Shown piece by piece: positions 6,439-39,010 of a stretch of DNA of 64,000 bases. A model generated the notes under the pieces. It saw nothing but the letters and a program-made list of their open reading frames with translations, had not been told where the DNA came from and did not search any database. Position 1 is the stretch's first letter, and the number at the start of each line of letters is the position of its first letter. This DNA comes from Halobacillus massiliensis (GTDB lineage Bacteria; Bacillota; Bacilli; Bacillales; Halobacillaceae): assembly GCF_900166625.1 (NCBI RefSeq), contig NZ_LT800499.1:3119676-3183675 (forward strand). The letters run 5' to 3'. The position numbers and the translations under genes were made by a program.

Positions 6439-6606
6439 GTTCCGTTTGCCTGAATATAGAGAACCGTGCCTGGGGAAAGACTCGCTTTCCATGGGCGAAC
6501 GGTGAGCTTCCTCAGGCAAAGCCTTCCGGGATCTCACCCTGTTCTATCCTCCCATAGGAGTCTCGCCGTTTCCCCCGGCCCTTTATGGTTTTAAGAGTAA
6601 CGGAAC
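6439..6606. repeat. Palindromic repeat, unit type B (reversed)
   Basis: A 168-bp unit bounded by GTTCCGTT (6439-6446) and AACGGAAC (6599-6606). Inside are the conserved blocks CTTTCCATGGGCGAACGGTG, ATCTCACC and CCTCCCATAGGAGTCTCGCC, flanked by complementary GGGG-rich and CCCC-rich ends (CTGGGGAAA / TTTCCCCCGG). The same unit recurs at 15916-16096 and 38712-38880. It is the left half of a composite whose right half is the type A unit starting at 6651. No coding capacity is credible. Confidence 0.85.
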
Positions 6607-6650
6607 CTTACGAAAGCGAGCTTAAAGATCTTTCACACTGGATTTTTAGC

Positions 6651-6775
6651 GTTCCGTTTCCACTCCTAAAGATAAAGAGGCTGGGAAATGGCGAGACTCC
6701 TGCAGGGAGATAGAACCAAGGTGAGATCCGCGAGTGGAACGAGCTAGCTCACCGGCTCTCCTCTAAAAAGCGATT
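6651..6775. repeat. Palindromic repeat, unit type A, right end decayed
   Basis: Starts with GTTCCGTT (6651-6658) and carries the type A core: CTGGGAAATGGCGAGACTCC, TGCAGGGAGATAGAAC, GGTGAGATCCGCGAGTGG, then GAGCTAGCTCACCGGCTC. The right arm that should read CCCCGCGGAAAGCGAG is degraded after about 6765 and no terminal AACGGAAC is found. The rest of the gap up to the thiolase stop at 6848 shows nothing I recognise. Confidence 0.8.
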
Positions 6776-6847
6776 GATTCCTAAGGTTCGAATCTTTTCT
6801 AACTGAGGCAGCGGCTTCTTTTTTCTTAGAAAAAGTTCACTTACAAA

Positions 6848-8017
6848 TCAGACCCATTCCGCCGGAACTTCTATGAGGATCGCATATCCTTGGCCGCCGC
6901 CTCCACATAGGGAAGCGATGCCTCTTCCTCCGCCGCGGCGTTTTAATGCATGAATAAGGGTTAGCATCAACCGGAATCCTGTTCCGCCAAGCGGGTGTCC
7001 AATGGCAATCGCTCCGCCGTTTATGTTTACTTTATCAGGCTCCAGCTCCAATTCGTTCATACTCGCGATCGCCACACTGGCAAAAGCTTCATTTATTTCA
7101 AATAGGTCAATGTCATCTTTTGTTAACCCATGTCCTCTTAGGATTTTATTGATAGCATCAGCCGGCTTGGTGTGAAGACTAGCATCTGGACCGGCTGTTT
7201 CCGACCAGCCAATTATTCTGGCAAGGGGTGTCTTCCCTATCTTCTCTGCATATCTCTCTGTCGAAACCAGGCCTATGCTTGCTCCATCAGACATCTGGGA
7301 GGCATTTCCTGCAGTGATTGTGCCGCCTTTTCTAAATGCAGGTTTCAGAGAGTTTAACTTTTCAATAGTAGAACCGGCCCGTACTCCTTCATCATGTCTG
7401 AGCTCTTCCCGGCCATTGAAAACAGGAACAATCTCATCATCCAGCCAGCCTTCTTCTTGAGCCTTTGCTGCTTTTAAATGGGAATTTAACGCGAATTTAT
7501 CCTGTTCCTCTCTATTAATAGAGAAACTTTCATTCTGTTCATCAGTTAAGAGGCCCATGGACTGGTCACTTAAAGAACACCAAAGTCCATCATTTATGAG
7601 AGAGTCGGTCATTTCTAAAGAGCCTGCCCCTGCACCATTGCGAAGGGACGCTACATGGGGAGCATTCGTCATTGAATCAAATCCACCGGTTACGTATAAT
7701 TCTCCTTCATCCAATTGAATTCTTCTTGTCGCATCAATAACCGTGGCGAGACCTCCAAGGCAGACATTATTAATGGTAATGGCCGGAACTTCAAGTGAAA
7801 TTCCTGATTTTACAGCTACGTTTCTTGCTGGATTCTGGCCCTGACCAGCTTGAATGACTTGAGCTAGTATTACCCCGCTTGCATCCTTTGTTTCTGGTAC
7901 GCGTTCTACAAGTTCTTTTGCAGCGTATACGCCTAAATCTTTTGCGTTTAACTTTGTAAATCCCCCTTTCCACTTTCCAAAAGGGGTGCGGACTCCATCT
8001 AATATAACAGCATTCAT
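6848..8017 (-). CDS. Acetyl-CoA C-acetyltransferase (thiolase)
   Basis: 389 residues, a complete thiolase. The acyl-accepting cysteine is Cys86 in INNVCLGGL; the C-terminal active-site segments are NEAFA near 300, GHPLGGTG near 345 and the second catalytic Cys in SLCGGGGQG near 375. It condenses or cleaves acetoacetyl-CoA (or longer 3-ketoacyl-CoA). The gene stands alone, 89 bases behind an S-box leader and its terminator hairpin (8064-8205), so SAM should control it, which is not an arrangement I know for a thiolase. RBS AAAGGAGG lies 10 bases before the ATG. Confidence 0.9.
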   Translation of the reverse strand: MNAVILDGVRTPFGKWKGGFTKLNAKDLGVYAAKELVERVPETKDASGVILAQVIQAGQGQNPARNVAVKSGISLEVPAITINNVCLGGLATVIDATRRIQLDEGELYVTGGFDSMTNAPHVASLRNGAGAGSLEMTDSLINDGLWCSLSDQSMGLLTDEQNESFSINREEQDKFALNSHLKAAKAQEEGWLDDEIVPVFNGREELRHDEGVRAGSTIEKLNSLKPAFRKGGTITAGNASQMSDGASIGLVSTERYAEKIGKTPLARIIGWSETAGPDASLHTKPADAINKILRGHGLTKDDIDLFEINEAFASVAIASMNELELEPDKVNINGGAIAIGHPLGGTGFRLMLTLIHALKRRGGGRGIASLCGGGGQGYAILIEVPAEWV

Positions 8018-8063
8018 TTTGACATGCCTCCTTTAGCATTAAGCTTCATAGCGAATGCACTAT

Positions 8064-8205
8064 AAATTAAGAAAGCCTCTTTCCAAAATGGAAAGAGGCA
8101 GAAGATCTCATCTGTTGGACGTATATCTGTCGAAAAGAGCACCTCGTCCAAAGACCGGCTGCCGGGCGTCAAAGGGACAAGTCCCCCAGCCTGCTCTCTA
8201 TAAGA
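8064..8205 (-). promoter_or_regulatory. SAM-I (S-box) riboswitch with intrinsic terminator, upstream of the thiolase gene
   Basis: Read on the minus strand, P1 is TCUUAU (plus 8200-8205) pairing with AUGAGA (plus 8106-8111). Between them come the S-box core blocks GGGACUUGUCCCUUUGACG, CCCGGCAGCC and GAGGUGCU in the right order. Downstream a stem GCCTCTTTCCA/TGGAAAGAGGC (plus 8075-8099) followed by TTTCTTAATTT forms the terminator. The core differs from consensus at a few bases (for example GGCAGCC for GGCAACC), so it could be a degenerate or variant S-box. Confidence 0.75.
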
Positions 8206-8235
8206 AAGTGCTATTGCCGTTATGAAGTTACTTGC

Positions 8236-8264
8236 ATACTACAAATAATCAATTCTAAAGTCAA
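8236..8264 (-). promoter_or_regulatory. Sigma-A promoter of the S-box leader
   Basis: Minus-strand TTGACT (plus 8259-8264), 17-base spacer, TAGTAT (plus 8236-8241). It places the start of transcription near 8229, about 24 bases before the riboswitch. Confidence 0.7.
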
Positions 8265-8292
8265 CTACTTTCAGAAAATTCCGCTGATATAC

Positions 8293-9666
8293 CTAGGAAA
8301 GGTGATTCTTTGCAAGTGAGAGCTGTTCTTTCACCTGCTCAAACCCTGTACCGCCTTCACTGGCTCTCGCAGCTACTACGTGATCCGGCGCCAGTTTTTC
8401 ATAAATGTCTTCTTCAAAAAGCTCAGAAAACTGCTTATACTCATCGAGCGTTAAATCAAGCAGAAACTTTTCCTGGTTGATTGCGTATAAAACAACTTGA
8501 CCGATTACTGAATGGGCATCCCTGAAAGGCAGCCCTTTTACAGCTAAATAGTCAGCAATATCTGTCGCGTTTGAATAGTCTTCATTTACGGCCTGGCGCA
8601 TATTGGCACTTTTCACTTCCATCGTAGAGAGCATTGGCGCTAATAAGGACAGAGCCCCATCAAGCGTATCTACCGTATCAAACATGCCCTCTTTGTCTTC
8701 CTGCATATCTTTATTGTAAGCGAGCGGAAGACCTTTAAGGAGTGTTAACAGACCCATTAAATTGCCATAAATGCGTCCCGTTTTTCCGCGGAGAAGTTCA
8801 GGCACGTCTGGATTTTTCTTCTGCGGCATTATGCTTGAGCCTGTACAAAACGCATCATCCAGTTCTATAAAATTAAATTCCTGACTGCTCCAAAGAATCA
8901 ACTCTTCTGACAGTCTTGAAATATGTGTAATTAAGATAGATGAAATTGATAAGAATTCCAGAATAAAATCACGGTCACTGACCGCATCTAGCGAATTAGG
9001 ATACACATGCTCAAACCCTAGTGTTTCAGCCGCCATTTTTCTATCAATTGGATAAGGTGTACCTGCAAGCGCAGCTGCTCCTAAAGGAGACCAGTCAATT
9101 CGTTTTAAACTATCCTTTAAACGTTCTTTATCCCGCTCAAACATCCAGAAGTATGCAAGTAAATGGTGGGCGAACGATACAGGCTGAGCCCTTTGAAGAT
9201 GCGTATATCCCGGTATAATCGTTTCTACGTGCTGTTCTGCCTGTTCTGTCAGAGATTTCTGCACAGCTTCCACTAATTGAATAAAGTGCTGTGTTTTTTC
9301 CTTTAGATACAGGTGCATATCTGTGGCCACCTGATCGTTGCGGCTTCTTCCGGTATGAAGTTTTCCACCGACAGGACCTATCTCATCAATCAGCAGTTTT
9401 TCGATATTCATATGGATATCTTCATCTGCGACGGAAAACTCTACTTCACCGTTTTCAATTTTCTGTTGAATTTTGTGCAGGCCTTCAGTAATTTGAGCAG
9501 CCTCATTTTCATCAATGATCTTGCATTTCCCCAGCATATCCACATGAGCCAGACTGCCTTTAATATCTTGTAGAGCTAATTTAACATCAAAGCCGATCGA
9601 AGAAGTATATTCTTCGACCAGCTTATCTGTTGGTTTTGTAAATCTTCCGCCCCAAAGCTTACTCAT
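8293..9666 (-). CDS. argH: Argininosuccinate lyase
   Basis: 457 residues, standard length for ArgH. The fumarase/aspartase superfamily signature [12 protein letters not shown] is near residues 277-288; the N-terminus LWGGRF and the TGRSRNDQ segment near 107-114 are diagnostic of argininosuccinate lyase. It splits argininosuccinate into arginine and fumarate, the last step of arginine synthesis. Its start overlaps the end of argG by 8 bases, so both are made from one T-box-controlled transcript. Confidence 0.97.
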
Positions 9667-10894
9667 TCACACTCACCGGCACTTTCTTAGCTGCAATTGG
9701 TTTTTTATGCACATCTGCATTTACTTTCGTTGGAAGTCCCCAAAGCTTAATGAAGCCTACAGCTGCATTGTGATCAAATGCATCGTTCTTAGAATACGTA
9801 GATAGTTCTTCGTTATAAAGGCTGACAGGAGATTTTTTGCCTGTCACATTGTAATGACCTTTGAACAGCTTCACTTTAACTGTTCCGGTTACTACTTTCT
9901 GTGTTTCTTCAACAAATGCCTGCAAAGCCGGCTGAAGCGGTGAATACCATAGGCCATCATAGATCATTTTCGCCATCTGCTGTTCCACATTCACTTTATA
10001 TTGAGAAACTTCTCTGGTTAATGTCAAGAACTCAAGCTCTTTGTGAGCATTGATTAAAATCATCGCCCCCGGGTTTTCATAAACTTCTCTTGATTTAATA
10101 CCGACAAGACGGTTTTCTGTATGGTCTATACGTCCAACGCCATGGATACCGCCAAGTTCATTTAGTTTTTCAATCAATGGCACAATGTCCATCTGTTTTC
10201 CATCAATCGCTACAGGTATGCCTTCATTAAATTCAATTTCAATAGTATCTGGTGTATCAGGAGTCTTTTCTATTGGATTCGTCCAGGCATAAGCAGCTTC
10301 AGGAGCTTCCTGCCACGGATCCTCAAGAACACCCGCTTCACATGCACGGCCCCAGATGTTGGCATCGATTGAAAATGGATTATCTAAATTAACAGGAACC
10401 GGGATCCCTTTCTCTTCTGCATATTTAATCTGCTCATCACGGGTCATACCCCATTCTCTTACAGGTGCAATGATCTCAAGGTCAGGATTCAATGCTTGGA
10501 TCGATACTTCAAATCTTACTTGATCATTCCCTTTTCCTGTACAGCCATGCGCAACAGCCACTGCTCCTTCCTGCTCTGCAACCTCAACGAGCAGTTTAGA
10601 GATAAGAGGACGGGAAAGTGCTGAAGATAAAGGATATTTCCCTTCATATAATGCGTTCGCTTTAAGTGCAGGCATTAAATAGTTCTCTGCCAGCATTTCC
10701 TTTGCATCTACCATGATTGCCTTAATAGCACCCACATCCAGTGCTTTTTGGCGAATCGCTTCAAGATCTTTCCCTTCGCCTACATCTAATCCCAGAGCAA
10801 TTACATCGTATCCGTATTTTTCCTGAATCCATTTTACTGAAATTGATGTGTCCAATCCGCCTGAATATGCTAATACTACTTTAGGTTTTGCCAT
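9659..10894 (-). CDS. argG: Argininosuccinate synthase
   Basis: 411 residues from the ATG at 10894, giving [17 protein letters not shown] with the N-type ATP pyrophosphatase P-loop at residues 10-17. Other family segments are [14 protein letters not shown]-like ([15 protein letters not shown]) and SIDANIWGR. It ligates citrulline and aspartate using ATP. An upstream in-frame ATG adds 10 residues, but AAGGAGG at 10903-10909 is placed 8 bases from 10894, so that start is chosen. First gene of argGH. Confidence 0.97.
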
Positions 10895-10922
10895 AATAAA
10901 TGCCTCCTTATTATTGTCCATC

Positions 10923-11165
10923 AAAAAGTCCGCCTCTTTTGGATAAAAGAGACGGACTTGTTATTCTGTCCGCGGTACCACTCTATTTGCCTATGGTTTA
11001 TAGGCCGCCTTAAATACTGATAACGGGAGGTCCCGGTCCGGGCTACTTTATTCACCCAAACTTCTCGGAAGTGCGTTTCGATATGTTTCAAATACCAGGC
11101 TCCCACCCGCCCTGGTTCGCTGAGATTCTCAACATGTCTACTCTCTTCGTCGTTGAATTCATTTA
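10923..11165 (-). promoter_or_regulatory. T-box leader of argGH, arginine specifier CGC
   Basis: On the minus strand the T-box sequence TGGTACCGCGG (plus 10970-10980) is followed by a terminator stem AAGTCCG-CTCTTTT / AAAAGAG-CGGACTT (plus 10926-10959) and a T run. In Stem I the AGTA motif lies opposite a loop GAAACGCA between stems AACATATC and CTTC; the specifier triplet is CGC (plus 11073-11075, seen as GCG) followed by A. CGC is an arginine codon, matching the regulated genes. Uncharged tRNA-Arg should turn on argGH. Confidence 0.92.
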
Positions 11166-11198
11166 TCGTTTCTGTATTTTTATTATTAATTGTTTATA

Positions 11199-11226
11199 AT
11201 TATACATGGATATGAAAAGAAGTCAA
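11199..11226 (-). promoter_or_regulatory. Sigma-A promoter of the argGH T-box transcript
   Basis: Minus-strand TTGACT (plus 11221-11226), 16-base spacer, TATAAT (plus 11199-11204). Transcription should start near 11192. Confidence 0.8.
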
Positions 11227-11299
11227 CGGTTGTGTGTAAATTTTTTTCTAGAAAAAATTGCTCCTTCTATCTTCCCTGTTTATCCAAATTTGTAAAATA

Positions 11300-11330
11300 A
11301 AAAAACACCCGACCAGGTCGGGTGTTTCGG
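11300..11330 (-). terminator. Terminator of the cysteine-rich four-helix protein gene
   Basis: Stem AAACACCCGACC (11303-11314) / GGTCGGGTGTTT (11316-11327), followed on the minus strand by TTTTTATTTTA. Confidence 0.85.
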
Positions 11331-11338
11331 TAAATCCT

Positions 11339-11668
11339 TTATGAGACTAGCTTTCTGCATTCTTCTGCACAGGCAAAGCATGCGTCCGCACATTTCTTAC
11401 AATGGTCGTGATCATGCTTGTTGCATTCTTCCCCACAGGCTTCACAGATTTTAGCACAGGCTTCTGCTAACTCTGAGACAAATGGAGTTCCTCTTGTGAG
11501 TGCTTGTTCGAAAAATCCACACATATCAGCACATTCACGATCAGTCCTAATACATTCTGCCATCATTTTGACATCCTCTTCTTGCAGGCAGGCATTATAG
11601 CAGTGGTTACAAGCCTCCATACATTCATGCAATTTTTCAATAGTTGATTGGTATTCCTGATGCGACAT
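11339..11668 (-). CDS. Cysteine-rich four-helix bundle, cytosolic copper-storage-like (Csp3/DUF326)
   Basis: 109 residues with 16 cysteines spaced as CxxxC and CxxC pairs along predicted helices (Cys16, 20, 23, 27, 39, 46, 50, 70, 74, 77, 81, 89, 92, 96, 99, 103) and an HDHDH loop near 84-88. This is the layout of DUF326/Csp proteins, tetramers of four-helix bundles that store Cu(I) inside the bundle. No signal peptide, so it is of the cytosolic Csp3 type. RBS GGGAGGGG precedes the ATG. No copper exporter or regulator is adjacent. Copper binding is inferred from family resemblance. Confidence 0.82.
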   Translation of the reverse strand: MSHQEYQSTIEKLHECMEACNHCYNACLQEEDVKMMAECIRTDRECADMCGFFEQALTRGTPFVSELAEACAKICEACGEECNKHDHDHCKKCADACFACAEECRKLVS

Positions 11669-11842
11669 TTAAACCCCTCCCAGGTAAAGTATTTTACATT
11701 CCTCTCTACCCAGGTAGTCCAGTCACTTAAACATATTGTATGCTGAATATTTTTATAATTTATTATCTATAACAAAAAACTTTGCTTGTTTGTTTCAGTG
11801 TCTTACATACTCCCTTATGCAAATTTTGTAGATATTTTTGTT

Positions 11843-11868
11843 GTTTAAAATTATGCAGAAAACGGTAT
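11843..11868 (+). promoter_or_regulatory. Sigma-B-like promoter of the 33-codon gene
   Basis: GTTTAA (11843-11848), 14-base spacer, CGGTAT (11863-11868), against the sigma-B consensus GTTTAA-N12-15-GGGTAT. It lies 46 bases before the small gene's start codon. One mismatch in the -10 box. Confidence 0.55.
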
Positions 11869-11913
11869 TAAGTAAACTATAGAAAGAAAAAATTATTTAG
11901 GAGGCGAATACGA

Positions 11914-12015
11914 ATGAAAATTACTGCCGGCAGCTGGAGAATGCTTTCCACACAAGAAAAGCTATATATCCTTCGTAAAATTAGTCATTTCCCTCACCTG
12001 CTAGAAGCTAAATAA
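11914..12015 (+). CDS. Small protein of 33 residues, possibly stress-induced
   Basis: An ATG-initiated frame of 33 codons preceded by TTAGGAGGCG (SD AGGAGG, 11 bases from the ATG). The product starts MKITAGSWRMLSTQEK, is amphipathic and mildly basic, and ends HLLEAK; it has no clear membrane segment or cysteine. A sigma-B-like promoter lies directly upstream and a strong terminator at 12218-12252 downstream, so this looks like a real short transcription unit. I do not recognise the family. An alternative is that the transcript is mainly a regulatory RNA. Confidence 0.5.
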   Translation: MKITAGSWRMLSTQEKLYILRKISHFPHLLEAK

Positions 12016-12067
12016 ATTTTCCAGGAAAGGAAGTTGTCGCTTATTACTTTACAGGAAAATAGGCAGT

Positions 12068-12148
12068 GGAAGATGATTTTACCGATAAACATATAATTTT
12101 AATTCAGTTGAAGTAGATATATACTTAATTTCTATTAAATCATCTTCC
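12068..12148. repeat. Long inverted repeat downstream of the 33-codon gene
   Basis: GGAAGATGATTT (12068-12079) is perfectly complementary to AAATCATCTTCC (12137-12148) with a 57-base AT-rich loop. It lies inside the presumed 3' part of the small sigma-B-like transcript. It may be an RNA structure, a weak terminator or a remnant. No gene is visible in 12016-12217. Confidence 0.6.
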
Positions 12149-12217
12149 TTATTTATACACTCATCCTACTACTCCCTTTATATATTTCCTCTGAATACTT
12201 CCCCATGCATTAAATAG

Positions 12218-12252
12218 ATCCGCCGGAGAAGCTGTATCCGGCGGATTTTTTA
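12218..12252 (+). terminator. Rho-independent terminator, plus strand
   Basis: Stem ATCCGCCGGA (12218-12227) / TCCGGCGGAT (12237-12246) followed by TTTTTATTT. The only plus-strand gene upstream is the 33-codon frame at 11914, about 200 bases away. Confidence 0.88.
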
Positions 12253-12417
12253 TTTGTCTGCACCGTCTCTTATTTTCCATTATTTTTTATTAGAAAATTT
12301 GTTTTTTTTCAAAGCATCTTAGTTGTATGCCTGCCCTGTTAAGGAGTATAATCATTCCTTAGTTATTAAGCGTGTATTCCAGGATTTGTGATGCATATAG
12401 AAAGGGGGAAACCGCTG

Positions 12418-13860
12418 ATGCCGCAAAATTATAATAAAGTCCTCATTGCCGCACTTCTGATTGCTGGATCGTTTATTACTATTTTAAACCAGACACTGAT
12501 GATTACGGCTATTCCTCCTATTATGGAAGAAATGAATATTTCAGCTAATACAGGTCAGTGGCTGACTACAGTGTTTATGCTGGTGAATGGCATTATGATT
12601 CCAATCAGTGCTTTTCTAATAGAAAGATTTACAACAAGGCAGCTATTTATTACGGCCATGGGCATCTTTGCTTTTGGAACTGTTGTGGGAGGACTGGCTC
12701 CTAATTTTGAATTTCTGCTGGCAGGACGAGTTATTCAGTCTGCAGGTGCCGGTGTTATGCTTCCTTTAATGCAGACTGTTTTTCTGCTGATTTTCCCTGT
12801 AGAAAAACGCGGGGCAGCTATGGGCTATATCGGACTGGTTATCTCTTTCGCTCCAGCAATCGGGCCAGCTTTATCAGGATGGGTAACAGCAAACTACAGC
12901 TGGAGATTCCTTTTCTGGTTTATTTTCCCATTAGCTATCATTATGATTTTCGTTGCCTTTTATATTTTAAGAAACGTAACAGAGCTGAAAAATCCTAAAG
13001 TGGATCCTGTGTCTATCATTTTGTCTTCTCTCGGTTTTGGCAGCCTGCTTTACGGTTTTACAAGTGCCGGTAATAATGGCTGGGCCAGTCCAGTAACTAT
13101 CGGGGTTCTTATTTTTGCAGCCCTTACATTAATAGTTTTCATTACAAGGCAGCTTAAAATGGAACACCCGATGCTTGAATTCCGTGTCTTTAAGCTTGGC
13201 ACGTTTACCATTACTACGATTATTGGAATGGTCGGCTTTATGGGATTAATCGGGGCAGAAACTCTTATCCCGCTATATATGCAGAATATGAGAGACTTCA
13301 CAGCAATGGAATCTGGACTCGTACTACTCCCAGGTGCGCTGATTTCTGGCTTTATGTCTCCGATTACGGGAAGAATTTTTGATAGAATTGGTGCAAGGCT
13401 GCTAGCCATTGTCGGCCTTTCTATTATGACAGCAGCATCTTTAGGGCTTGCTTTTCTATCGGCTGAAACTTCCCTCATGTTCTTAACAGTTATGTACGCC
13501 ATCCGGATGTTCGGTTTTGCCATGGTGATGATGCCTGTAACAACAGCAGGATTAAATCAGCTTCCGCCAAAACTAATCCCGCACGGTGCAGCTATGAGCA
13601 ACACGATGCGCCAAATTGCAGCTTCTGTAGGAACAGCGATTCTAGTTACAGTAATGACCACAACAGCTCAGACAGCTGATCAGCGTCCAACCATTCCACA
13701 CCCTGAAATTCACGGCGTGAATGTCGCATTTCTCGTTATAACAGCATTGTCGTTTATAGCGTTAATTCTATCCATCTTTGTAAAAAGGACATATCCGCCT
13801 ACGGATGAAGAGTGGGAGGCTCAATCTGAACAAAAAGAAGCACTTAAACGGAACGGCTAA
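12418..13860 (+). CDS. DHA2-family MFS drug:proton antiporter (LmrB/EmrB-like)
   Basis: 480 residues from the ATG at 12418, with about 14 hydrophobic segments typical of the DHA2 group. Motif-like stretches include LNQTLMITAIPPIM in TM1, GQWLTTVFMLVNG near TM2, the antiporter motif C-like GPALSGWVTANYSWRF, and GLNQLPPKLIPHGAAMSNTMRQ late in the protein; the whole resembles B. subtilis LmrB. It would export lipophilic drugs with proton influx at the membrane. GTG/ATG codons at 12388/12391 are in frame, but AAAGGGGG at 12400-12407 fits the 12418 start. No regulator is adjacent. Confidence 0.9.
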   Translation: MPQNYNKVLIAALLIAGSFITILNQTLMITAIPPIMEEMNISANTGQWLTTVFMLVNGIMIPISAFLIERFTTRQLFITAMGIFAFGTVVGGLAPNFEFLLAGRVIQSAGAGVMLPLMQTVFLLIFPVEKRGAAMGYIGLVISFAPAIGPALSGWVTANYSWRFLFWFIFPLAIIMIFVAFYILRNVTELKNPKVDPVSIILSSLGFGSLLYGFTSAGNNGWASPVTIGVLIFAALTLIVFITRQLKMEHPMLEFRVFKLGTFTITTIIGMVGFMGLIGAETLIPLYMQNMRDFTAMESGLVLLPGALISGFMSPITGRIFDRIGARLLAIVGLSIMTAASLGLAFLSAETSLMFLTVMYAIRMFGFAMVMMPVTTAGLNQLPPKLIPHGAAMSNTMRQIAASVGTAILVTVMTTTAQTADQRPTIPHPEIHGVNVAFLVITALSFIALILSIFVKRTYPPTDEEWEAQSEQKEALKRNG

Positions 13861-15759: not shown

Positions 15760-15915
15760 TCCACCTTATCTTTCTCATTATATTTATATATTCTCATAAG
15801 AATGTATTGTATCCTAGTGGGATGGTAAAAAATGTGTTTTTTATCGGGGCTAAAACCTAAAAATCTCACCCTTGTTCTGGGCTCCTATAAGGCTTCTTAG
15901 ATGAAAAAGAATTCT

Positions 15916-16096
15916 GTTCCGTTTGCCTGAATATGGAGAACCGGGCCGGGGGAAACAACTCGCTTTCCATGGGCGAACGGTGAGCTTCCTCGGGCTTTTA
16001 GCCCTCCGGGATCTCACCATGTTCTATCCTCCCATAGGAGTCTCAAGAGTCTCTCCGTTTCCCCCGGCCCTTCGCGTTTATTAGGAGTAACGGAAC
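15916..16096. repeat. Palindromic repeat, unit type B (reversed), best-preserved copy
   Basis: 181 bp bounded by GTTCCGTT (15916-15923) and AACGGAAC (16089-16096). Inside is a 14-bp perfect inverted repeat GGGCCGGGGGAAAC (15943-15956) / GTTTCCCCCGGCCC (16057-16070), then GGTGAG (15979-15984) / CTCACC (16013-16018), and a central hairpin GGGCT / AGCCC (15992-15996, 16000-16004). Single-stranded, the unit would fold into one long imperfect hairpin. It forms the left half of the composite with the A unit at 16147. Confidence 0.88.
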
Positions 16097-16146
16097 ATTG
16101 AGTAAGAAAAAGTCACTTCCTTAATAGCGATTACTGAAATTACAGC

Positions 16147-16310
16147 GTTCCGTTTATACCTCCAATGGTAAAGAGGATGGGAAATGGCGAGACTCCTGCA
16201 GGGAGATAGAGCCCGGGTGAGATCCGCGAGTGAAACGAGCTAGCTCACCGGCTCCCCGCGGAAAGCGAGTTATTTCCCAGTCGCTTTTCTCTTCCTACAG
16301 TTAACGGAAC
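16147..16310. repeat. Palindromic repeat, unit type A (forward), complete
   Basis: 164 bp bounded by GTTCCGTT (16147-16154) and AACGGAAC (16303-16310). Internal complementary blocks: TGGGAAAT (16178-16185) / ATTTCCCA (16272-16279), GGGAG / CTCCC, and GGTGAG / CTCACC around GAGCTAGCTC. It shares CGAGACTCCT, GATAGA and GGTGAGATC with type B, so A and B look like diverged relatives. Confidence 0.88.
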
Positions 16311-16590
16311 AGCCTTTCCCTTCCTCCATAATTTAGAACAAAGGAAAAAGTGTGACTCCTACAGGGATATAGAGCAAGGGTGAGATCCGTGAGTGGAACG
16401 AGCTAGCTCATCGGCTCTCCGCGAAAAGCGAGTTATTTCCCAGCCGCTTTTCTCTTCCTACAGTTAACGGAACAGTCTTTTCCTTCCTAAATAATTTAAA
16501 ACAAAGGAAAAGGTGGGACTTCTGCAGGGAGATAGAGCAAGGATGAGATCCATGAGTGGAATGGGCTAGGTCACCGGCTCCCTGCTTAAA
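16311..16590. repeat. Tandem copies of unit A (one full 163-bp repeat and a truncated one)
   Basis: After the first A unit the same core is repeated at 16351-16473, ending again in AACGGAAC (16466-16473), and once more at 16513-16585 with a truncated right arm. The repeat distance is 163 bp (AACGGAAC at 16303 and 16466). The two copies share the junction AACGGAACAG followed by a CTTTCCCTTCC/CTTTTCCTTCC linker, which shows direct duplication rather than independent insertion. Confidence 0.85.
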
Positions 16591-16601
16591 AGTAAAGTAA
16601 A

Positions 16602-16628
16602 AAAAGTGAGCCATTTCGGCTCACTTTT
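16602..16628 (-). terminator. Terminator of mtlD
   Basis: Stem AAAAGTGAGCC (16602-16612) / GGCTCACTTTT (16618-16628), 5-base loop, T-rich on the minus strand (TTTTTTACTTTACT). Confidence 0.88.
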
Positions 16629-16632
16629 GTTT

Positions 16633-25808: not shown

Positions 25809-25954
25809 ATGAAATCCCCCTTGTAACTTAGCTTTTCCAGTTCCAGGATTGTCCTATACAAAAAAATTATCACCTTCTGCAAGTTCAAGTAAGAATTTTT
25901 TCATACGGAATTATAGGGGCCCCCTGTTATTATGTAGAGCAAAAAAGTGACTGG

Positions 25955-26060
25955 ATAATCACTCGCTTTTTGCGGGGACCCGGCCTCAGGAAGCTCACCG
26001 TTTTCCCATGAAAAGCGATTCGCCTTACCTGGCCCGTCTCTGTATTCATGAAAACGGCAC
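25955..26060. repeat. Decayed copy of the palindromic repeat family
   Basis: CACTCGCTTTTTGCGGGGACCCGG, GGAAGCTCACCG and CCCATGAAAAGCGAT blocks match pieces of units A and B, and the right edge AACGGCAC (26053-26060) is one base off AACGGAAC. The left terminus is not recognisable. The gap 25809-25954 otherwise holds only the toxin leader and promoter. Confidence 0.6.
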
Positions 26061-27645: not shown

Positions 27646-27849
27646 TGTTTTCTTTTCATTTTCTCTTATAAATCTACAAATTCCCTTAACTGATCGCTCA
27701 AATAATCGGTTTACTTCTTTTTATATAGCAGCCTGCAAGACATCGGGTTTTATTTCCAGATTGTGAAGTTTTCCATTTTTACATTTACAAACGGTAAGGA
27801 TTCAGCTAGGATATCATTAAAGCATTATAAAAACTGCATAAGGAAGAAT

Positions 27850-28026
27850 TAGCACTAGGGGAGCTGCCATAGCGCGGCTGAGAAGAGGATGACTCTGACC
27901 CTTTGTACCCGATCTGGATAATACCAGCGTGGGGAAGTGCAGTCAGCCGAATCACCTTTTTAAGGTATTTGAAACTTCTTTTCAGATGAGATGACTGCAT
28001 TCCCATAGGGATGCAGTTTTTTTGTG
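27850..28026 (+). promoter_or_regulatory. TPP (THI-box) riboswitch with terminator/antiterminator platform
   Basis: The aptamer spans 27850-27942: P1 GCACT (27852-27856) / AGTGC (27936-27940), then ACTAGGGGAGC, GCTGAGA near 27877, GACCCTTTG and CCCGATCTGGATAATACCAG, all thi-box blocks. The terminator stem is ACTGCAT...CCC (27994-28004) / GGG ATGCAGT (28008-28017) plus a T run. TGCAGTCA (27938-27945), overlapping the P1 3' strand, is perfectly complementary to TGACTGCA (27992-27999), giving the alternative antiterminator. TPP binding should stop transcription of ykoFEDC. Confidence 0.96.
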
Positions 28027-32540: not shown

Positions 32541-32678
32541 AAATAAACACTCCCATATCTCTTTCTTTTACTTTCCCTCTTTCCCATAAAATTCATACAG
32601 AATGACTAATTTTGACTTATTTTGTCGCATGACAATATTCCTATTAAAATAGATTTGATTCTTTATTAATGGTAAAAT

Positions 32679-32691
32679 ATGTATCATACAT
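32679..32691. promoter_or_regulatory. Palindrome ATGTAT-C-ATACAT upstream of the response regulator
   Basis: A perfect 13-base palindrome 72 bases before the regulator's start codon. It could be an autoregulatory site of this LuxR/NarL-type protein. The assignment is inference from position only. Confidence 0.35.
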
Positions 32692-32762
32692 AAAGATTAG
32701 GATAGGTTTTATTAATTAATTGTCAGGAGTGGTTAAATTACTAATAGGAGGTTAATATGTAA

Positions 32763-33395
32763 ATGATTCGGGTTATGGTAGTTGACGATCATACTGTACT
32801 AAGGGACGGAATATCACATGTAATTAATTTAGACAGCAATATGAAAGTTGTAGAGTCTGCCAGTACTATTGAAGAAGCTATTAAGAAAACCGAAGCCAGT
32901 CTTCCTGATGTAATCCTTGCAGACATTCATCTTCAAGATGAAAGCGGGCTTGACCTTACTGTTTTTTTAAAAAAGAAATTTCCACATATTAAAATCCTGA
33001 TTCTTACTGTAGAAGATAATGAGCATTACCTTAAGCAGGCATTGGATGCAGGGGCTGAAGGTTATTTACTAAAAGACACTTCAAGCGATGAACTTATCTA
33101 CGGCATTCAAAATATTTATAAAGGAAACTGTGTGATTCCCCCATCTATGACCAAAGAATTTCTTCACAGCAGATATCACCCGGGAAGATCTTCTCAAGAG
33201 ATACTGACACCAAGGGAAAAAGAAGTATTAAGAGAGCTCGCCAAAGGCTTTACGAATAAAGAAATCGGCCGAATGCTTTATATAAGTGACAAAACTGTTA
33301 AAATTCACATAAGCAATATATATAAGAAACTTAAAGTCAGCAGCCGATCACAGGCAATCGTATATGCTGTTCAAAAAAATTGGATCATCGCTTAA
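32763..33395 (+). CDS. Orphan NarL/FixJ-family response regulator
   Basis: 210 residues. Receiver domain about 1-120 with Asp8/Asp9, phospho-acceptor Asp54 (ILADIH), Thr near 82 and Lys near 104 (YLLKD); a LuxR-type HTH near 146-206 (LTPREKEVLRELAKGFTNKEIG). It binds DNA when phosphorylated. No sensor kinase lies next to it, so the kinase is elsewhere or the domain is used without one. RBS AGGAGG and a downstream terminator mark a single-gene unit. It precedes the biofilm-like cluster, so it may control it. Confidence 0.9.
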   Translation: MIRVMVVDDHTVLRDGISHVINLDSNMKVVESASTIEEAIKKTEASLPDVILADIHLQDESGLDLTVFLKKKFPHIKILILTVEDNEHYLKQALDAGAEGYLLKDTSSDELIYGIQNIYKGNCVIPPSMTKEFLHSRYHPGRSSQEILTPREKEVLRELAKGFTNKEIGRMLYISDKTVKIHISNIYKKLKVSSRSQAIVYAVQKNWIIA

Positions 33396-33425
33396 CAAAA
33401 AAACCCTCTAATTTAGAGGGTTTTT
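33395..33425 (+). terminator. Terminator of the response regulator gene
   Basis: Stem CCCTCTA (33402-33408) / TAGAGGG (33412-33418) flanked by A and T runs, giving a U-rich end. Confidence 0.88.
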
Positions 33426-33585
33426 TTAGTTTGCAATTTAGAAGGTCCTATATCGTATAGGCCACATGGAGTAACTCATTCTCATTCTTTTTTCTTGTCA
33501 CTTTACTCCTCATGGCTAATACAAAATCTTTCATTTTTTAACGATAATTGACATAGACACTTCCGCTAGAGAAAGGAGATATTCA

Positions 33586-34416
33586 GTGTTTAAAAGCAAG
33601 TTACACCCTCTCATTTATTCAGCTTCCCTCCTGTTTTTCACGGTAGGGTTATTGGCTCAACTCACCTCTAATACAGAAGCAGTATTTGTCGCGACGGAAG
33701 AAAAAGAGATAAACCTTCATACTTCTCCTGTTTTTGAGAGCGGGATGAATGAACGGATAAAAAACCTTGAAAAGCTTTATGAGCACATTTCTGCAGACTA
33801 TGATCATCTATTAAATATTCCAGTACAACATCCCTCTCAAGATCAATATGAGGAAGCGATAGAAACTGGAAACCAACAGCGACAGCATCTAAAGACAGAT
33901 ATGGAAGAATTTCAAATTAAATATGAAAAGACCCTATCTTTTTTAAAAGAAAACAGATCAGATTCTCTTTCTTTTATAGAAGAAGGCCTGCAGCAAGCAT
34001 ATGACTTACATAAGAAATTTAAGAAGATTGACATAAAAAAGGTGGATGAACATTTACAGCTTCTTGAAGATGACTTTGAGAATTGGCAAACAGAGCAGCG
34101 TAAAGAAATAAAGGAGAAAGAAGTAGAGCAGGAAAAAGAGAAAGAGAAAGAAAAAGAGCAAAAAGAAAAGAAAAAAACCTCTACTTCAGCTGATGTTAAG
34201 AAACCAAAACAAACAGAAGAAACTAAAAAAGAGGAGGAATATTCTTCGGAAAAGGATGTTCAAAAACAGGACGATCAGAAATCAGTCGAAACAACTCCGT
34301 CCGATTCTGCTGAAGATACCGAAAAACAAAGTGAAAATGAAGAAATAAAGGTTTCTTCAACAGATACTGAAACCGAAAATTATAAAGGAGATGAAAAGGT
34401 TGAAGAGAATGTTTAA
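33586..34416 (+). CDS. tapA: TapA-like biofilm fibre anchoring/assembly protein
   Basis: 276 residues starting at GTG with RBS AAAGGAGAT 5 bases upstream. A hydrophobic N-terminus (residues about 8-27) is followed by TEAVF, then a helical region of coiled-coil character (about 50-175) and a Lys/Glu-rich tail with KEKEKEKEQKEKKK. Order and neighbours (sipW, then a TasA/camelysin-like protein) match B. subtilis tapA-sipW-tasA, and the B. subtilis protein also has a TSAAF-like post-signal motif and a Lys/Glu-rich tail. Overall sequence similarity looks low and the cysteines of B. subtilis TapA are missing, so the call leans on synteny. Confidence 0.72.
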   Translation: MFKSKLHPLIYSASLLFFTVGLLAQLTSNTEAVFVATEEKEINLHTSPVFESGMNERIKNLEKLYEHISADYDHLLNIPVQHPSQDQYEEAIETGNQQRQHLKTDMEEFQIKYEKTLSFLKENRSDSLSFIEEGLQQAYDLHKKFKKIDIKKVDEHLQLLEDDFENWQTEQRKEIKEKEVEQEKEKEKEKEQKEKKKTSTSADVKKPKQTEETKKEEEYSSEKDVQKQDDQKSVETTPSDSAEDTEKQSENEEIKVSSTDTETENYKGDEKVEENV

Positions 34417-34951
34417 ATTTTTCCAAAAAGCTCTTTCTCTAGCAGGCTGCCTGCTTGTAATATGTCTTGCTGTGTTAGTCATAGCTGTAAAGGCCAGCGG
34501 CGGCGAGCCGACTATTCTTAATCATCAGTTTAAATCCGTTTTATCTGGATCGATGGAACCTGAATTTTCTACCGGTTCCATAATCTCTGTGAAGCTTACG
34601 GAAGATCCGACTGGCTATCAAAAAGGTGATGTTATTACGTTTATCGATAAAGATGAAAACATCGTTACTCACCGGGTGACTGAAGTAGAACAAACCAAAC
34701 AGGATACCATCTACAGGACGAAAGGTGATAACAATGACGGTGTAGATCTTGATCCCGTTTTATCCGAAAATGTGATCGGGCATTACACAGGCTTTGCTAT
34801 TCCATATGCCGGTTATCTATTAAGCTACGCCGGGTCAAAGCTTGGATCAGCGCTTCTCTTGTTTATTCCTGGTCTCATTCTCTTCACCTCTGCTTTATTT
34901 ACATTCAGAGGTGTAGCGAGAGATTTAAAAAGTCAGGAAAAAGCAGCGTAA
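34400..34951 (+). CDS. sipW: SipW-type (ER-like) signal peptidase I
   Basis: About 184 residues. An N-terminal membrane anchor, KASGGEP, then LSGSMEPEFSTGS with the catalytic Ser, DVITFIDKDENIVTHRVTE with the His used as base in ER-type peptidases (His in THR), KGDNNDGVDLDPV, and a C-terminal membrane segment. SipW removes the signal peptides of TapA and TasA. The gene overlaps the tapA end. AAAGGAG at 34384-34390 best fits the TTG at 34400; ATG at 34391 is adjacent to the RBS and ATG 34409 is 18 bases away. Confidence 0.88.
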   Translation: MKRMFKFFQKALSLAGCLLVICLAVLVIAVKASGGEPTILNHQFKSVLSGSMEPEFSTGSIISVKLTEDPTGYQKGDVITFIDKDENIVTHRVTEVEQTKQDTIYRTKGDNNDGVDLDPVLSENVIGHYTGFAIPYAGYLLSYAGSKLGSALLLFIPGLILFTSALFTFRGVARDLKSQEKAA

Positions 34952-35011
34952 CTCGTGTGTCACTTCTTATGCTTCTGCATAAGAGTCCATTATATATAAG
35001 GAGGAATTTAG

Positions 35012-35608
35012 ATGGGATTTATGAAGAAATTAAGCGGAGGATTGGTGACAGCGTCGCTGGGACTATCACTTATGGGAGGAGGTACATATGCATATTTTAG
35101 TGACGAAGAAACAACTAGTAACACATTTGGAATGGGAACTCTTGATGTCTCTGTAAACCCTCAGGTAATTGTAGATATTACAGACTTAAAGCCTGGAGAC
35201 TCAGTATTGAAAGAATTTAAATTAGCAAATGAAGGAACATTGGACATTAAGTCTATTAGTCTATTAACGGATTATCAAGTAGTCGATGCAAAAGGCAATA
35301 ACGGCGGAGATGACCTTGGGGATCACATTCGCGTAAATTTCCTTTGGAACTGGGATAAGGAAAGTGAACCTGTATTTCAAACAACGTTAAGTGAATTACA
35401 GGCGATGGATCCGGATGTAGTAGCAAAAGATATTTTCGATCCTCTATGGGAGCAGCGCGGAGGCCTGGATGTAGGTATGGAGAATACGCTTTGGGTAGAA
35501 TTTGAATTTGTAGACAGCGGGGAAGATCAAAATATCTTTCAAGGCGATGACATGAACCTTGAGTGGACATTTAATGCGAAGCAAACAGATGGCAATGATT
35601 ACGAATAA
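35012..35608 (+). CDS. TasA/camelysin (CalY)-family secreted fibre protein
   Basis: 198 residues. A SipW-type signal peptide (MGFMKKLSGGLVTASLGLSL, cleavage near TYA-YFSD) and the mature start YFSDEETTSNTFGMGTLDV are hallmarks of TasA/CalY proteins (M73 family). TasA forms the amyloid-like fibres of the Bacillus biofilm matrix; camelysin-type homologues are surface proteins with debated protease activity. It is shorter than B. subtilis TasA (about 261 residues) and closer in length to CalY. RBS AAGGAGG 7 bases before the ATG. Confidence 0.85.
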   Translation: MGFMKKLSGGLVTASLGLSLMGGGTYAYFSDEETTSNTFGMGTLDVSVNPQVIVDITDLKPGDSVLKEFKLANEGTLDIKSISLLTDYQVVDAKGNNGGDDLGDHIRVNFLWNWDKESEPVFQTTLSELQAMDPDVVAKDIFDPLWEQRGGLDVGMENTLWVEFEFVDSGEDQNIFQGDDMNLEWTFNAKQTDGNDYE

Positions 35609-35647
35609 GGGTTTAAAGCCTGTATTATATAAAGGAGGACATCTTTA

Positions 35648-37300
35648 ATGAAGAAAAAAATCTTTTCGTCAGCCGCGGCATTAGCCATTGCCCTTGGCGG
35701 ACTGAGCACAGTCCACGCGGATGAAAATCAAATCAAGATAAATGATAAATATAACACACCTTCTTATATCATTGAGAAGTGGGAAATGCCTCCAAAGCTG
35801 ACCCTTTCTAAGAAAAAGGTAACTGAAGAGGAGATCGCCTTATCTTACCTTGAGTATCAAAAAGATAAATTGAAACTAAAAGGAAATATGAAAAACCATT
35901 TTAAAGTTGTGGACACTCAGAAAGATAAAGAAACCGGCACCTCTCACCTACGCTTAGTCGAACACCAAAATGGTGTCCCTATTTATGGTTCTGAACAGAC
36001 TATCTCTATCACTGATAACCAAGAAGTCACTGCCTTTTTTGGCGAGGTGGTTCCGCAAGAACATAAAGAAAATCTAGACACTTCTCCTTCTATCGATGCA
36101 GCTCAGGCAGAAAGTAAAGTCAATCAAGCTATTGAAGATAAGATTGGGGAAGTTAAAGCGTATGATGCTGATCCAAAAGCTGAATTGTACCTATTTGATA
36201 AAGAGGGAGACTTCCACTTAACCTATTTAGTGAAAGCTTCCACATCTAACCCAGCTCCTGGGTATTGGCACTATTTTGTTGATGCCAGCAATGGAGAGAT
36301 CATTGAAAGCTTCAATGCAATTGATAATGTAACAGCTTTTGGAGAAGGTGTTCTTGGAGATAAGAAGAAATTTGAAGTAACAAAAGACAATAACAGCTAT
36401 TACTTATACGACGGCACAAGAGGCGATGGCATCCATACATTTAACGCTCTTAATCTAGATCCAAATTTATTTAATTTACTTTCACAGATCTTCGGCTATC
36501 ACGGAGATGAGATTACAAGTAATCACAAGTTCTTCTCTGATCCGGCTGCTGTTGATGCTCAGGCTCATGCTGCAGATGTATATGACTATTATGAGGAGAC
36601 CTTTAACAGAGATTCTTTTGATGATGAGGGAGCACGGCTGATTTCTTCCGTACATGTAGGAGACGGTTGGAATAATGCTGCTTGGAACGGCGTTCAAATG
36701 ATGTATGGGGACGGAGATGGAGATACATTCATTCCTTTCTCAGGAGCATTGGATGTTATCGGACATGAGTTAACACACGCAGTTACCGACCGCTCTGCGG
36801 ACCTCGTCTACCAGTACGAGCCAGGAGCTCTGAATGAATCTTTTTCTGATATTCTTGGAGCAATGGTTGACCGTGATGACTGGTTGATGGGTGAGGATAT
36901 TTATACACCGGACATAGAAGGGGATGCGCTGCGTTCATTGGAAGACCCTGCTTCTATTCCAAATCCTTTAAACCCTGAAGAAGGGTATCCAGATCACTAT
37001 AGCAAGCTATATACCGGAGAGCTTGACAACGGTGGTGTTCACGTAAACTCCAGTATTAACAATAAAGCCGCTCACCTGCTTTCCGAAGGCGGTACTCATT
37101 ATGATGTAGAAGTAGAAGGAATTGGCCGAAAAGCAACAGAACAAATTTACTACCGGGCCCTTACGAAATATTTAACACCCACTTCTGATTTCAGCATGAT
37201 GAGACAAGCTGCCATCCAGTCTGCAATTGATATATATGGAGAAAACTCTCAGCAGACAATCTCTGTTAAACAGGCATACGATGCAGTGGGCGTAAAATAA
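35648..37300 (+). CDS. Secreted neutral metalloprotease (thermolysin/bacillolysin, M4)
   Basis: 550 residues as pre-pro-enzyme. Signal peptide about 1-24 (ALGGLSTVHA), FTP/PepSY propeptide region to about residue 220, mature domain from about 225. Zinc site: His373, Glu374 and His377 in GHELTHA, and the third ligand Glu in GALNESFSD; the catalytic His is in DNGGVHVNSS. It hydrolyses extracellular proteins. It follows the TasA-like gene by 39 bases with no terminator visible between, so it may be co-expressed with the matrix genes. Confidence 0.95.
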   Translation: MKKKIFSSAAALAIALGGLSTVHADENQIKINDKYNTPSYIIEKWEMPPKLTLSKKKVTEEEIALSYLEYQKDKLKLKGNMKNHFKVVDTQKDKETGTSHLRLVEHQNGVPIYGSEQTISITDNQEVTAFFGEVVPQEHKENLDTSPSIDAAQAESKVNQAIEDKIGEVKAYDADPKAELYLFDKEGDFHLTYLVKASTSNPAPGYWHYFVDASNGEIIESFNAIDNVTAFGEGVLGDKKKFEVTKDNNSYYLYDGTRGDGIHTFNALNLDPNLFNLLSQIFGYHGDEITSNHKFFSDPAAVDAQAHAADVYDYYEETFNRDSFDDEGARLISSVHVGDGWNNAAWNGVQMMYGDGDGDTFIPFSGALDVIGHELTHAVTDRSADLVYQYEPGALNESFSDILGAMVDRDDWLMGEDIYTPDIEGDALRSLEDPASIPNPLNPEEGYPDHYSKLYTGELDNGGVHVNSSINNKAAHLLSEGGTHYDVEVEGIGRKATEQIYYRALTKYLTPTSDFSMMRQAAIQSAIDIYGENSQQTISVKQAYDAVGVK

Positions 37301-37310
37301 TATACAACTA

Positions 37311-37342
37311 AATCCCCGAAGAACAATGGCTCTTCGGGGATT
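37311..37342. terminator. Terminator between M4 protease and AraC-type gene
   Basis: Stem AATCCCCGAAGA (37311-37322) / TCTTCGGGGATT (37331-37342), located between convergent genes. The flanking T tracts are weak. Confidence 0.75.
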
Positions 37343-37353
37343 ACTCTGTAAAG

Positions 37354-38217
37354 CTATTTAACAGGGATCCAAATCTCTGAATAATAATCCTCACTGTAAG
37401 GATCTCCGTCTCCATATACTTCAAGCTCCGGAGAAGGTGCGTGTTCATAACCACTGGATGGAAACCACTCAGAGTATATTTGCTTCCATACCTTCTGAAT
37501 GGCATGTGGCATGGCACCGTGAACACTAAATACCGCCCATTTTGCTGCTGGAATCTGTCTTGTCTCATACCCTTTTGCATCGTTATGATCAGATGTTACA
37601 GCTATCCAATATTCCATCTTCTCACCTTCAGGTTCTCCTACACAAACTCCGAGACAACCTTCGATTTTCTGATTGCTTAAGCTCATGATATCATCAGTGG
37701 TACCATTTGCATTTACTTCTTCCCACATTTTAGAAATACCCTGTTCGTTCTCACCATTAATTAAAGAAAACTGTTGTTTCACCCCAACGACTTGCAGTTC
37801 TTCTTTCTCAACCATTCGATACTGCATCGGCTCTGCTCCTTTCAAATTCACCTGGATGACCAAGCGGTTATAAGAGGTCAGCTTTCCAGCAAATAACCGG
37901 GCTTCTTTCGGCGATACCCCGTGCTGCCTGCGGAAAGCTTTAGTAAATGCTTCAGGAGTTTCATAGCCATACTTAAAGGCAACATCGATTACTTTAGCGT
38001 TGGAACGGGAGAGCTCATGTGCGGCCAAGGTTAATCTTCTTCGTCTTAAGTACTCCCCTGCTGAGGTATCTGTCAGGATGGTAAAGGAACGCTGAAAATG
38101 ATAGGGAGACATGCAGGCTTCTTCTGCAATATCGGAGATTGAAATCGAATTCATCAGGTTCTTTTCCATATAATCAATCGCTTTTTGTAATGATTTAACC
38201 ATTGTCATATGACTCAC
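37354..38217 (-). CDS. AraC-family regulator with C-terminal GyrI-like effector domain
   Basis: 287 residues. An N-terminal AraC DNA-binding domain (about 8-105) with two HTH units, including ISISDIAEEACMSPYHFQRSF and VIDVAFKYGYETPEAFTKAF; then a GyrI-like effector-binding domain (about 125-287) as in Rob, SoxS-linked and BmrR-type sensors of small amphipathic molecules. The target is unknown. Upstream lies the palindromic repeat cluster. A separate stand-alone GyrI-like domain is encoded at 60967. Confidence 0.92.
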   Translation of the reverse strand: MSHMTMVKSLQKAIDYMEKNLMNSISISDIAEEACMSPYHFQRSFTILTDTSAGEYLRRRRLTLAAHELSRSNAKVIDVAFKYGYETPEAFTKAFRRQHGVSPKEARLFAGKLTSYNRLVIQVNLKGAEPMQYRMVEKEELQVVGVKQQFSLINGENEQGISKMWEEVNANGTTDDIMSLSNQKIEGCLGVCVGEPEGEKMEYWIAVTSDHNDAKGYETRQIPAAKWAVFSVHGAMPHAIQKVWKQIYSEWFPSSGYEHAPSPELEVYGDGDPYSEDYYSEIWIPVK

Positions 38218-38294
38218 TCCTTAATTTCAACTTTATCAGGTGATTCTCAAGGTTTCCTGTCTATTTATGCTTAATGAGAACAGGTTTCTTTCTT

Positions 38295-38405
38295 GGGGTA
38301 TCGGTGAGCTAGCTCGTTTTTGCGGGGAGTCGATGAGGCTAGCTCGTTCCACTCGGGGATCTTATCTTGGCTCTTCTCTGTGCAGGAGTCGAACCGTTAT
38401 TTCCT
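38295..38405. repeat. Decayed type A repeat (reversed) with a small internal duplication
   Basis: GGTGAGCTAGCTCGTTTTTGCGGGGAG is followed by a second GAGGCTAGCTCGTTCCACTCGGGGATC and then CTTGGCTCTT and GCAGGAGTCG, pieces of the A core in reverse order with GAGCTAGCTCG-like blocks twice. It lies just left of the intact A unit at 38502. No termini are found. Confidence 0.65.
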
Positions 38406-38501
38406 TATACCTTATAAGTTTGAATAGAGAATGGTTCGTTATCAAGTTTGAAAAAACGGCTGGGAAATAGCTACTTCTTATTTTTGAGAAGTGGAAAGAC
38501 G

Positions 38502-38665
38502 GTTCCGTTTACTTTATAAAGTGGAACGAGGGTTGGAAATAGCTCGCTTTCCGCGGGGAGCCGGTGAGCTAGCTCGTTACACTCGCGGATCTCACCTTGG
38601 CTCTATCTCCCTGCAGGAGTCTCGCCATTTCCCACCCTCTTTACCAGTGGTGGTGAAAACGAAAC
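38502..38665. repeat. Palindromic repeat, unit type A (reversed)
   Basis: 164 bp from GTTCCGTT (38502-38509) to AACGAAAC (38658-38665, one base off AACGGAAC). It contains AGCTCGCTTTCCGCGGGGAG, GGTGAGCTAGCTCG, GATCTCACC and CCCTGCAGGAGTCTCGCC in the order expected for the reverse orientation. With the B unit at 38712 it forms the same composite as at 15.9 kb, inverted. Confidence 0.88.
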
Positions 38666-38711
38666 ACTAAATTTGGAGAAAGATCCTCTACCTTAGTCTT
38701 CTTACGTTAAA

Positions 38712-38880
38712 GTTCCGTTATTCTAACAAACGCAAAGGGCCGGGGGAAACGGCGAGACTCCTATGGGAGAAGAGAACAGGGTGAGATCCCGGAAGGCTTT
38801 AGCCTGAGGAAGCTCAGCGTTCGCCCATGGAAAGCGAGTCTTTCCCCAGACCCGGGTCTCTACATTAAAATAAACGGAAC
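38712..38880. repeat. Palindromic repeat, unit type B (forward)
   Basis: 169 bp from GTTCCGTT (38712-38719) to AACGGAAC (38873-38880), with GGGCCGGGGGAAACGGCGAG, CTATGGGAG, GGTGAGATCCC, GGAAGCTCAGCG and CGCCCATGGAAAGCGAGTC, and CCCGGGTC near the right end. Confidence 0.88.
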
Positions 38881-38899
38881 CGACAGCATTGTACTCTAG

Positions 38900-39010
38900 G
38901 ATAGAGAACTGAGCGAGAATCCCGGAAGGCTTTTGCCTGAGGAAGCTCACCGATCGCCCATGGAAAGCGAGTCTTTCCCCAGGCCCGGGTCTCTTTATTC
39001 AAGCAAACGG
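38900..39010. repeat. Partial tandem copy of unit B
   Basis: A second run of GAGAATCCCGGAAGGC, GGAAGCTCACCGATCGCCC and ATGGAAAGCGAGTCTTTCCCC follows 133 bp after the first, ending AACGGA (39005-39010). The left third of the unit is missing. Confidence 0.8.

Follow-up and report, generated by a model that had tools for sequence, protein, structure and literature searches.

A head-to-head pair of hairpin units repeated about a hundred times in a Halobacillus chromosome is probably a non-autonomous mobile element

The DNA that we analysed, referred to here as the window, is a 64-kb stretch (positions 3,119,676-3,183,675 of contig C2) of the 4.31-Mb Halobacillus massiliensis genome (G000). A preliminary description of the window had reported three composites, at 6.4, 15.9 and 38.5 kb, in which two related units, B and A, stand in the same head-to-head order around spacers of 44, 50 and 46 bp. 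Direct reading confirmed all three (Table 1), as well as the GATCTTTC shared by the spacers at 6.6 and 38.7 kb, which reads GAAAGATC in the inverted copy. Other details had to be amended. The caps said to bound every unit at both ends are exact in four of the six units, but the A unit at 6651 has lost its outer cap and the inner end of the A unit at 38.5 kb is AACGAAAC. Similarly, each unit was said to fold into a long imperfect hairpin, but the predicted fold of the A unit at 6651 is disrupted. As for the motifs attributed to both A and B, GGTGAGATC and GAGACTCCT are found in 6/6 units (the latter with a preceding T, not C, in the B unit at 15.9 kb), but GATAGA is absent from the B unit at 38.7 kb.

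Table 1. Composite units, spacers and related fragments, in positions of the window
Feature	Position	Strand	Basis or remark
Unit B hairpin, first composite	6439..6606	-	Direct reading, fold, model match
Spacer, first composite, 44 bp	6607..6650	.	Direct reading
Unit A, first composite, degraded outer arm	6651..6800	+	Model match 6652-6800
Unit B, second composite	15916..16096	-	9-bp insertion relative to other B units
Spacer, second composite, 50 bp	16097..16146	.	Aligns with spacers elsewhere in the genome
Unit A, second composite	16147..16310	+	Direct reading, fold, model match
Second A unit of the 15.9-kb array, diverged inner arm	16311..16473	+	Model match 16343-16473
Third A unit of the 15.9-kb array, degraded	16506..16632	+	Model match; extends towards the mtlD terminator
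Decayed doublet, outer A arm adjoining outer B arm, centre gone	25928..26058	.	Model match
Outer partial A unit, 38.5-kb array	38306..38403	-	Model match
Unit A, third composite (inverted)	38502..38665	-	Direct reading, fold, model match
Spacer, third composite, 46 bp	38666..38711	.	Direct reading
Unit B, third composite (inverted)	38712..38880	+	Direct reading, fold, model match
Outer partial B unit, 38.5-kb array	38903..39011	+	Model match
B unit fragment	50299..50350	+	Model match, 21.7 bits

We counted 13 copies of the cap GTTCCGTT in the window where 1.07 would be expected, and none of 100 shuffles reached this number. We found that the arrays at 15.9 and 38.5 kb extend beyond the limits first given to them, with extra partial A or B units outside, and that the doublet at 25.9 kb is a relic, possibly the product of palindrome deletion. 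No Rfam family matched 15850-16520 at E 1 or better, and the only Rfam matches in the whole window are a T-box leader (10945-11162, minus strand) and a TPP riboswitch (27847-27952, plus strand).

The same composite recurs throughout the genome. An exact seed (GGAGTCT-N122..152-AGACTCC) was found at 109 places, against none for the reversed pattern used as a control, and single cores (GGTGAGATC..GCTCACC) gave 209 matches. Among the 96 seed places retrieved, 92 are clear B<A> pairs and four were left undecided by a simple score. Profile models recognised 330 units in 100 clusters, a set enriched for composites because it was retrieved mainly by the composite seed; 97 of them follow the arrangement (B<)n-spacer-(A>)m, the irregular ones being two lone B fragments and one B<A>B>. 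At 14 further places with a listed core but without the seed composite, ten cores have a head-to-head partner and four places hold A units only. The spacer measures 45-53 bp in 94 of 98 pairs. Random pairing and spacing of A and B, the outcome held to speak against a composite, was not seen. On the other hand, the closed element of fixed length (380-395 bp) that had been proposed is not borne out, since further units stand outside the composite in 75 of the 97 regular clusters, those beyond B being B units and those beyond A being A units.

We did observe several signs that B, spacer and A spread as a linked composite and not as independent units, as had been suggested. The spacers of the 30 best-scoring copies can be aligned, and across 84 full-length, non-duplicate composites (the 97 clusters minus seven segmental duplicates and six of unfit length) they differ by 0.41 on average and fall into subfamilies. 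In these 84 composites, the three nearest neighbours were shared between A unit and spacer (A1-S) in 41/252 cases against 9.1 in shuffles (maximum 23), between the two units (B1-A1) in 26/252 against 9.4 (maximum 22), and between B unit and spacer (B1-S) in 20/252 against 8.9, the last lying inside the shuffle range (maximum 22). Mantel tests that were row-centred, which removes the effect of age, gave r 0.16 for A and spacer and r 0.09 for B and spacer, with 0/2000 shuffles as high in either case, and r 0.05 for B and A (18/2000). The plain test gave r 0.31 for B and A (4/2000) and was weak for the spacer (B1-S 116/2000, A1-S 339/2000 shuffles as high). The spacer is thus weakly linked to its A and B units, beyond the shuffles in most tests. 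Together with the narrow range of spacer length, this linkage argues that the dimer spreads as a block, and the tests indicate that B, spacer and A travel together, though the modules have been reshuffled. In line with this, blocks of about 390-706 bp are common to distant loci.

The extra outer units are more diverged. Divergence among them is 0.24 and 0.26 against 0.115 and 0.111 among inner units, and an outer unit differs only slightly less from its own inner neighbour (0.167 and 0.166) than from others (0.187 and 0.196; 40 arrays each). Local duplication explains this pattern less well than a process in which new copies enter or replace the centre of old ones, and we infer that arrays grew in this way; a stronger constraint on inner units would fit as well.

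Homologous doublets are present in related genera. A first look, in which at most 11 candidates were scored per genome, gave a match in 43 of 61 genomes. The short-spacer seed matched in 17 of 44 family genomes, with some rows of the count looking like chance and the reversed control matching in three genomes. Seed counts were 109 in this genome, 15 in G036, seven in G017, five each in G004, G023 and G065, and one to three in eleven others. At 24 loci picked by single-unit matches (from G001, G003, G008, G011, G016, G020, G025 and G036), we found 17 head-to-head pairs, no other arrangement, and seven loci with one unit, of which one is cut by a contig end and one was retrieved short. The head-to-head pair is the usual form in several genera and not special to this genome, with a middle whose length varies by lineage: mostly 40-50 bp in G004, 59-69 bp in G036, 87-114 bp in G011, G016 and G025, mostly 114-136 bp in G020, and 159-362 bp in G003.

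The doublets of G003 and G020 lie between GAAGACT..TTTCGAGA repeats, which at one mismatch have 111 and 181 sites, and beyond these repeats come the inverted ends GGCTCTGTTAAA. Among 42 elements chosen largely by these repeats, 24 have GGCTCTGTTAAA as terminal inverted ends (at least 8 of 12 positions at both ends) and 18 are without clear ends. Target duplications of 8 bp, scored as flanking 8-mers equal with at most one mismatch, were found in ten of the 24 elements scored, against a mean of 0.47 and a maximum of 4 in shuffles. These ten elements, of 266-853 bp, comprise seven with a detected doublet, two with one detected unit and one with none detected (L236, 266 bp), suggesting that the ends can move without the doublet. 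MITEs of DDE insertion sequences are short, non-coding and present in high copy number, with inverted ends and target duplications, and the G003/G020 elements are likely to belong among them. For the element of this genome such membership is unproven. Its terminal inverted repeats consist of the short caps only, and the bases just outside the caps are partly conserved, which makes the true ends in this genome unsure; direct repeats around the clusters showed no excess (131 8-mers against 104.5 in shuffled pairs, maximum 133). In G036, 11 copies align over about 575 bp with sharp ends, and no target duplication was seen by eye.

Empty sites in related genomes were found at the one site compared, that of the 15.9-kb array. 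The intergenic region between mtlD and the metallophosphoesterase gene, which holds this array, is 873 bp long here. Among named sequences, this mtlD has its best matches in Halobacillus, which also shares the gene order. By protein matches, Halobacillus sp. A5 (L047) has about 173 bp at this position and H. andaensis (L050) about 275 bp, with no unit match better than E 1 in either. A third relative, Halobacillus sp. A1 (L046), has about 663 bp with a different doublet, in which the B unit is clear, its inverted partner is weak and the ends are of the G003 type. By reading, both filled copies begin close behind the mtlD terminator.

Considering these results, we believe that the composite, present in about a hundred mostly intergenic copies in this chromosome, is probably a MITE-like, non-autonomous mobile element with a body made of two structured hairpin units placed head to head. 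Copying would depend on a transposase supplied in trans, and the hairpins may be kept because propagation needs them, either as bound structures or as single-stranded intermediates. Older copies would often be entered or displaced at their centre by new ones, which could produce the (B<)n(A>)m arrays, the innermost pair being the youngest. What survives of the mobile system in this genome may be no more than a relic.

One may instead regard the composite as a functional cis element kept by selection, such as a bidirectional 3'-end structure, an mRNA stabiliser, a protein or gyrase site or a BIME-like sequence, with mobility being secondary. We consider this rather unlikely. Strong covariation of the local hairpin across genera counts in its favour, as it does for the mobile reading. 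A consensus hairpin of 28 pairs was derived from 52 units of ten genomes and L046, and 93.3% of its cells are paired. Double-changed cells numbered 190 against 62.4 (sd 6.5) in shuffles, and covariation was 0.356 against 0.143 in shuffles, with 0.055 as the highest value on sliding. Predicting the structure from this very alignment works in its favour, and the shuffles ignore relatedness, but the margin is still large. Among folds not forced into local hairpins, the best predicted one for the whole composite is a giant B-A hairpin; because the covariation counted lies within units, we favour local hairpins as the conserved form.

The gene context, too, counts for both readings, the clusters being biased to the 3' sides of genes. 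With context genes taken as open frames of at least 80 aa and duplicates included, 56 of the 100 clusters lie between codirectional genes, 41 between convergent and three between divergent ones, and seven share more than 30 bp with an open frame. The 31 intergenic regions of the window longer than 60 bp, used as a control with the composite-holding ones included, divide into 19, three and nine (Fisher p 9.7e-4 for convergent and 1.1e-4 for divergent). Codirectional clusters have no orientation preference (29 vs 27), as expected of an element working in both directions. A simple finder detected terminators separating gene from cluster at 61 of 128 gene 3' ends and at 15 of 59 5' sides, a result that is suggestive only. 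Scarcity near promoters is also expected of any tolerated insertion, and a selected cis element is opposed by the unit-free relatives at the site compared, by the decay of the outer units and by a lineage-specific burst, with 109 seeds here and five or fewer in each of ten same-genus relatives.

That an old repeat was multiplied without transposition, through segmental duplication, gene conversion and homologous recombination, seems to us quite improbable. Segmental duplications carrying composites do exist, one linker type occurs with several spacer types (16 rows, including a few false members), and the centre-deleted relic at 25.9 kb would suit such a history. Against this, by eye about half of the 28 ends of 14 block pairs between distant loci break at GTTCCGTT/AACGGAAC, several others continuing into outer linkers or units, and the target duplications in relatives and the unit-free sites argue for insertion. 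The recent segmental duplications with composites lie at 442-456 kb, 541.5-545.8 kb, 1.206-1.233 Mb and 3.542-3.547 Mb of G000; one such duplication spans 4155 bp at 100% identity.

To our knowledge, bacterial doublet elements are known mainly as REPINs moved by RAYTs, for which a GTAG/CGTC tag at the foot of the palindrome serves as a criterion. The composite resembles REPINs as described in PMC3116915, REP doublets that form hairpins, with an inverted pair plus spacer as the linked, replicative unit, high copy number, extragenic location, a less conserved spacer and compensatory changes. Moreover, 33 of 44 family genomes have Y1 genes, with one or two matches in each of ten same-genus relatives. 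Nevertheless, the sole Y1 match of this genome contains two stops and lies away from any unit found, units are present in only two of 32 scanned Y1 stretches (30 loci and two overlapping stretches of this genome), and three of the four Y1 regions inspected have other palindromes, which form a separate repeat system. The RAYT-type partner gene with matching ends that the preliminary description proposed to look for was therefore not borne out, and of that interpretation as a whole, the spread of a linked composite and the unit-free relatives stand, but the fixed length and the RAYT partner do not. In addition, G003/G020 elements have 8-bp target duplications, which Y1 elements are not known to make. 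Movement as a REPIN or BIME by a RAYT (Y1 tyrosine) transposase is, on all these grounds, very improbable.

The broken, RAYT-like Y1 gene of this genome lies at 941872-942078 of G000 (L186, L201). In relatives, RAYT-sized Y1 genes are accompanied by GTACCAGGTAC palindromes spaced 28 bp (L310, L319), and CACCTCAGGTCATCCA hairpins stand beside the Y1 gene at L308.

A search of seven to eight genomes for an autonomous parent with the same ends gave none among ISL3, IS240 and IS1595. ISL3 has three open copies with other termini in G020, one copy with stops in G003 and none in five other genomes; IS240 gave nothing over the cut-off in eight genomes and one weak match in G025; IS1595 was found in none of eight genomes. 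By reading, no transposase was recognised in the open frames listed for two subterminal repeats that lie 1.6 kb from each other in G003. There was no match to the composite in plasmid and phage collections, to a G003 element in plasmid collections, or to an exact 33-base pattern in viral contigs, and literature searches by words and sequence strings yielded no paper that we recognised as describing this repeat.

Returning to the mobile element that we propose, its doublet logic is REPIN-like and the ends and duplications of its relatives are MITE-like, the REPIN test having failed on RAYT linkage. It differs from REPINs in the size of its units (about 170 bp, against short REPs), its asymmetric A/B pair, its one-centre arrays, the lack of any RAYT link found and the target duplications in relatives. 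With MITEs it shares small size, absence of coding sequence and high copy number, as well as the inverted ends and 8-bp duplications in G003/G020; unlike DDE MITEs, its body is a conserved, covarying hairpin doublet and its ends differ between genera. A comparable doublet grammar with larger units, without RAYT linkage and with target duplications in relatives suggests that paired hairpins may have evolved as a unit repeatedly, in which case an enzyme other than a RAYT would be required. As copy number differs among many genomes, a gene-association search for this enzyme is feasible. We would only tentatively raise the further possibility of a new class of mobile elements in salt-loving Bacillaceae: two large covarying hairpins, set head to head, would propagate together by means of a non-RAYT enzyme, exchange their outer ends from one lineage to another, and insert downstream of gene terminators as well as in the middle of earlier copies of themselves.

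BIMEs (PMC2817692) are likewise mosaics of palindromic units with linkers; in the present element the units are larger and always stand head to head about a single centre. The stem-loop repeats Bhal-1, Bhal-2 and Bcr1 of Bacillus chromosomes, of 74, 76 and 167 bp in 36, 50 and 31 copies according to PMC2267715, are alike in description.

The first 653 kb of G000 are dense in composite seeds, and none is listed from about 653,100 to 1,134,800 (~480 kb); among the matches listed (one strand), the first single core in this gap is at 1,099,642. A 63-bp tandem repeat, with 10.5 copies within the stretch and 99% matches, is found at 1135842-1136500 of G000 (L143 2543-3201).
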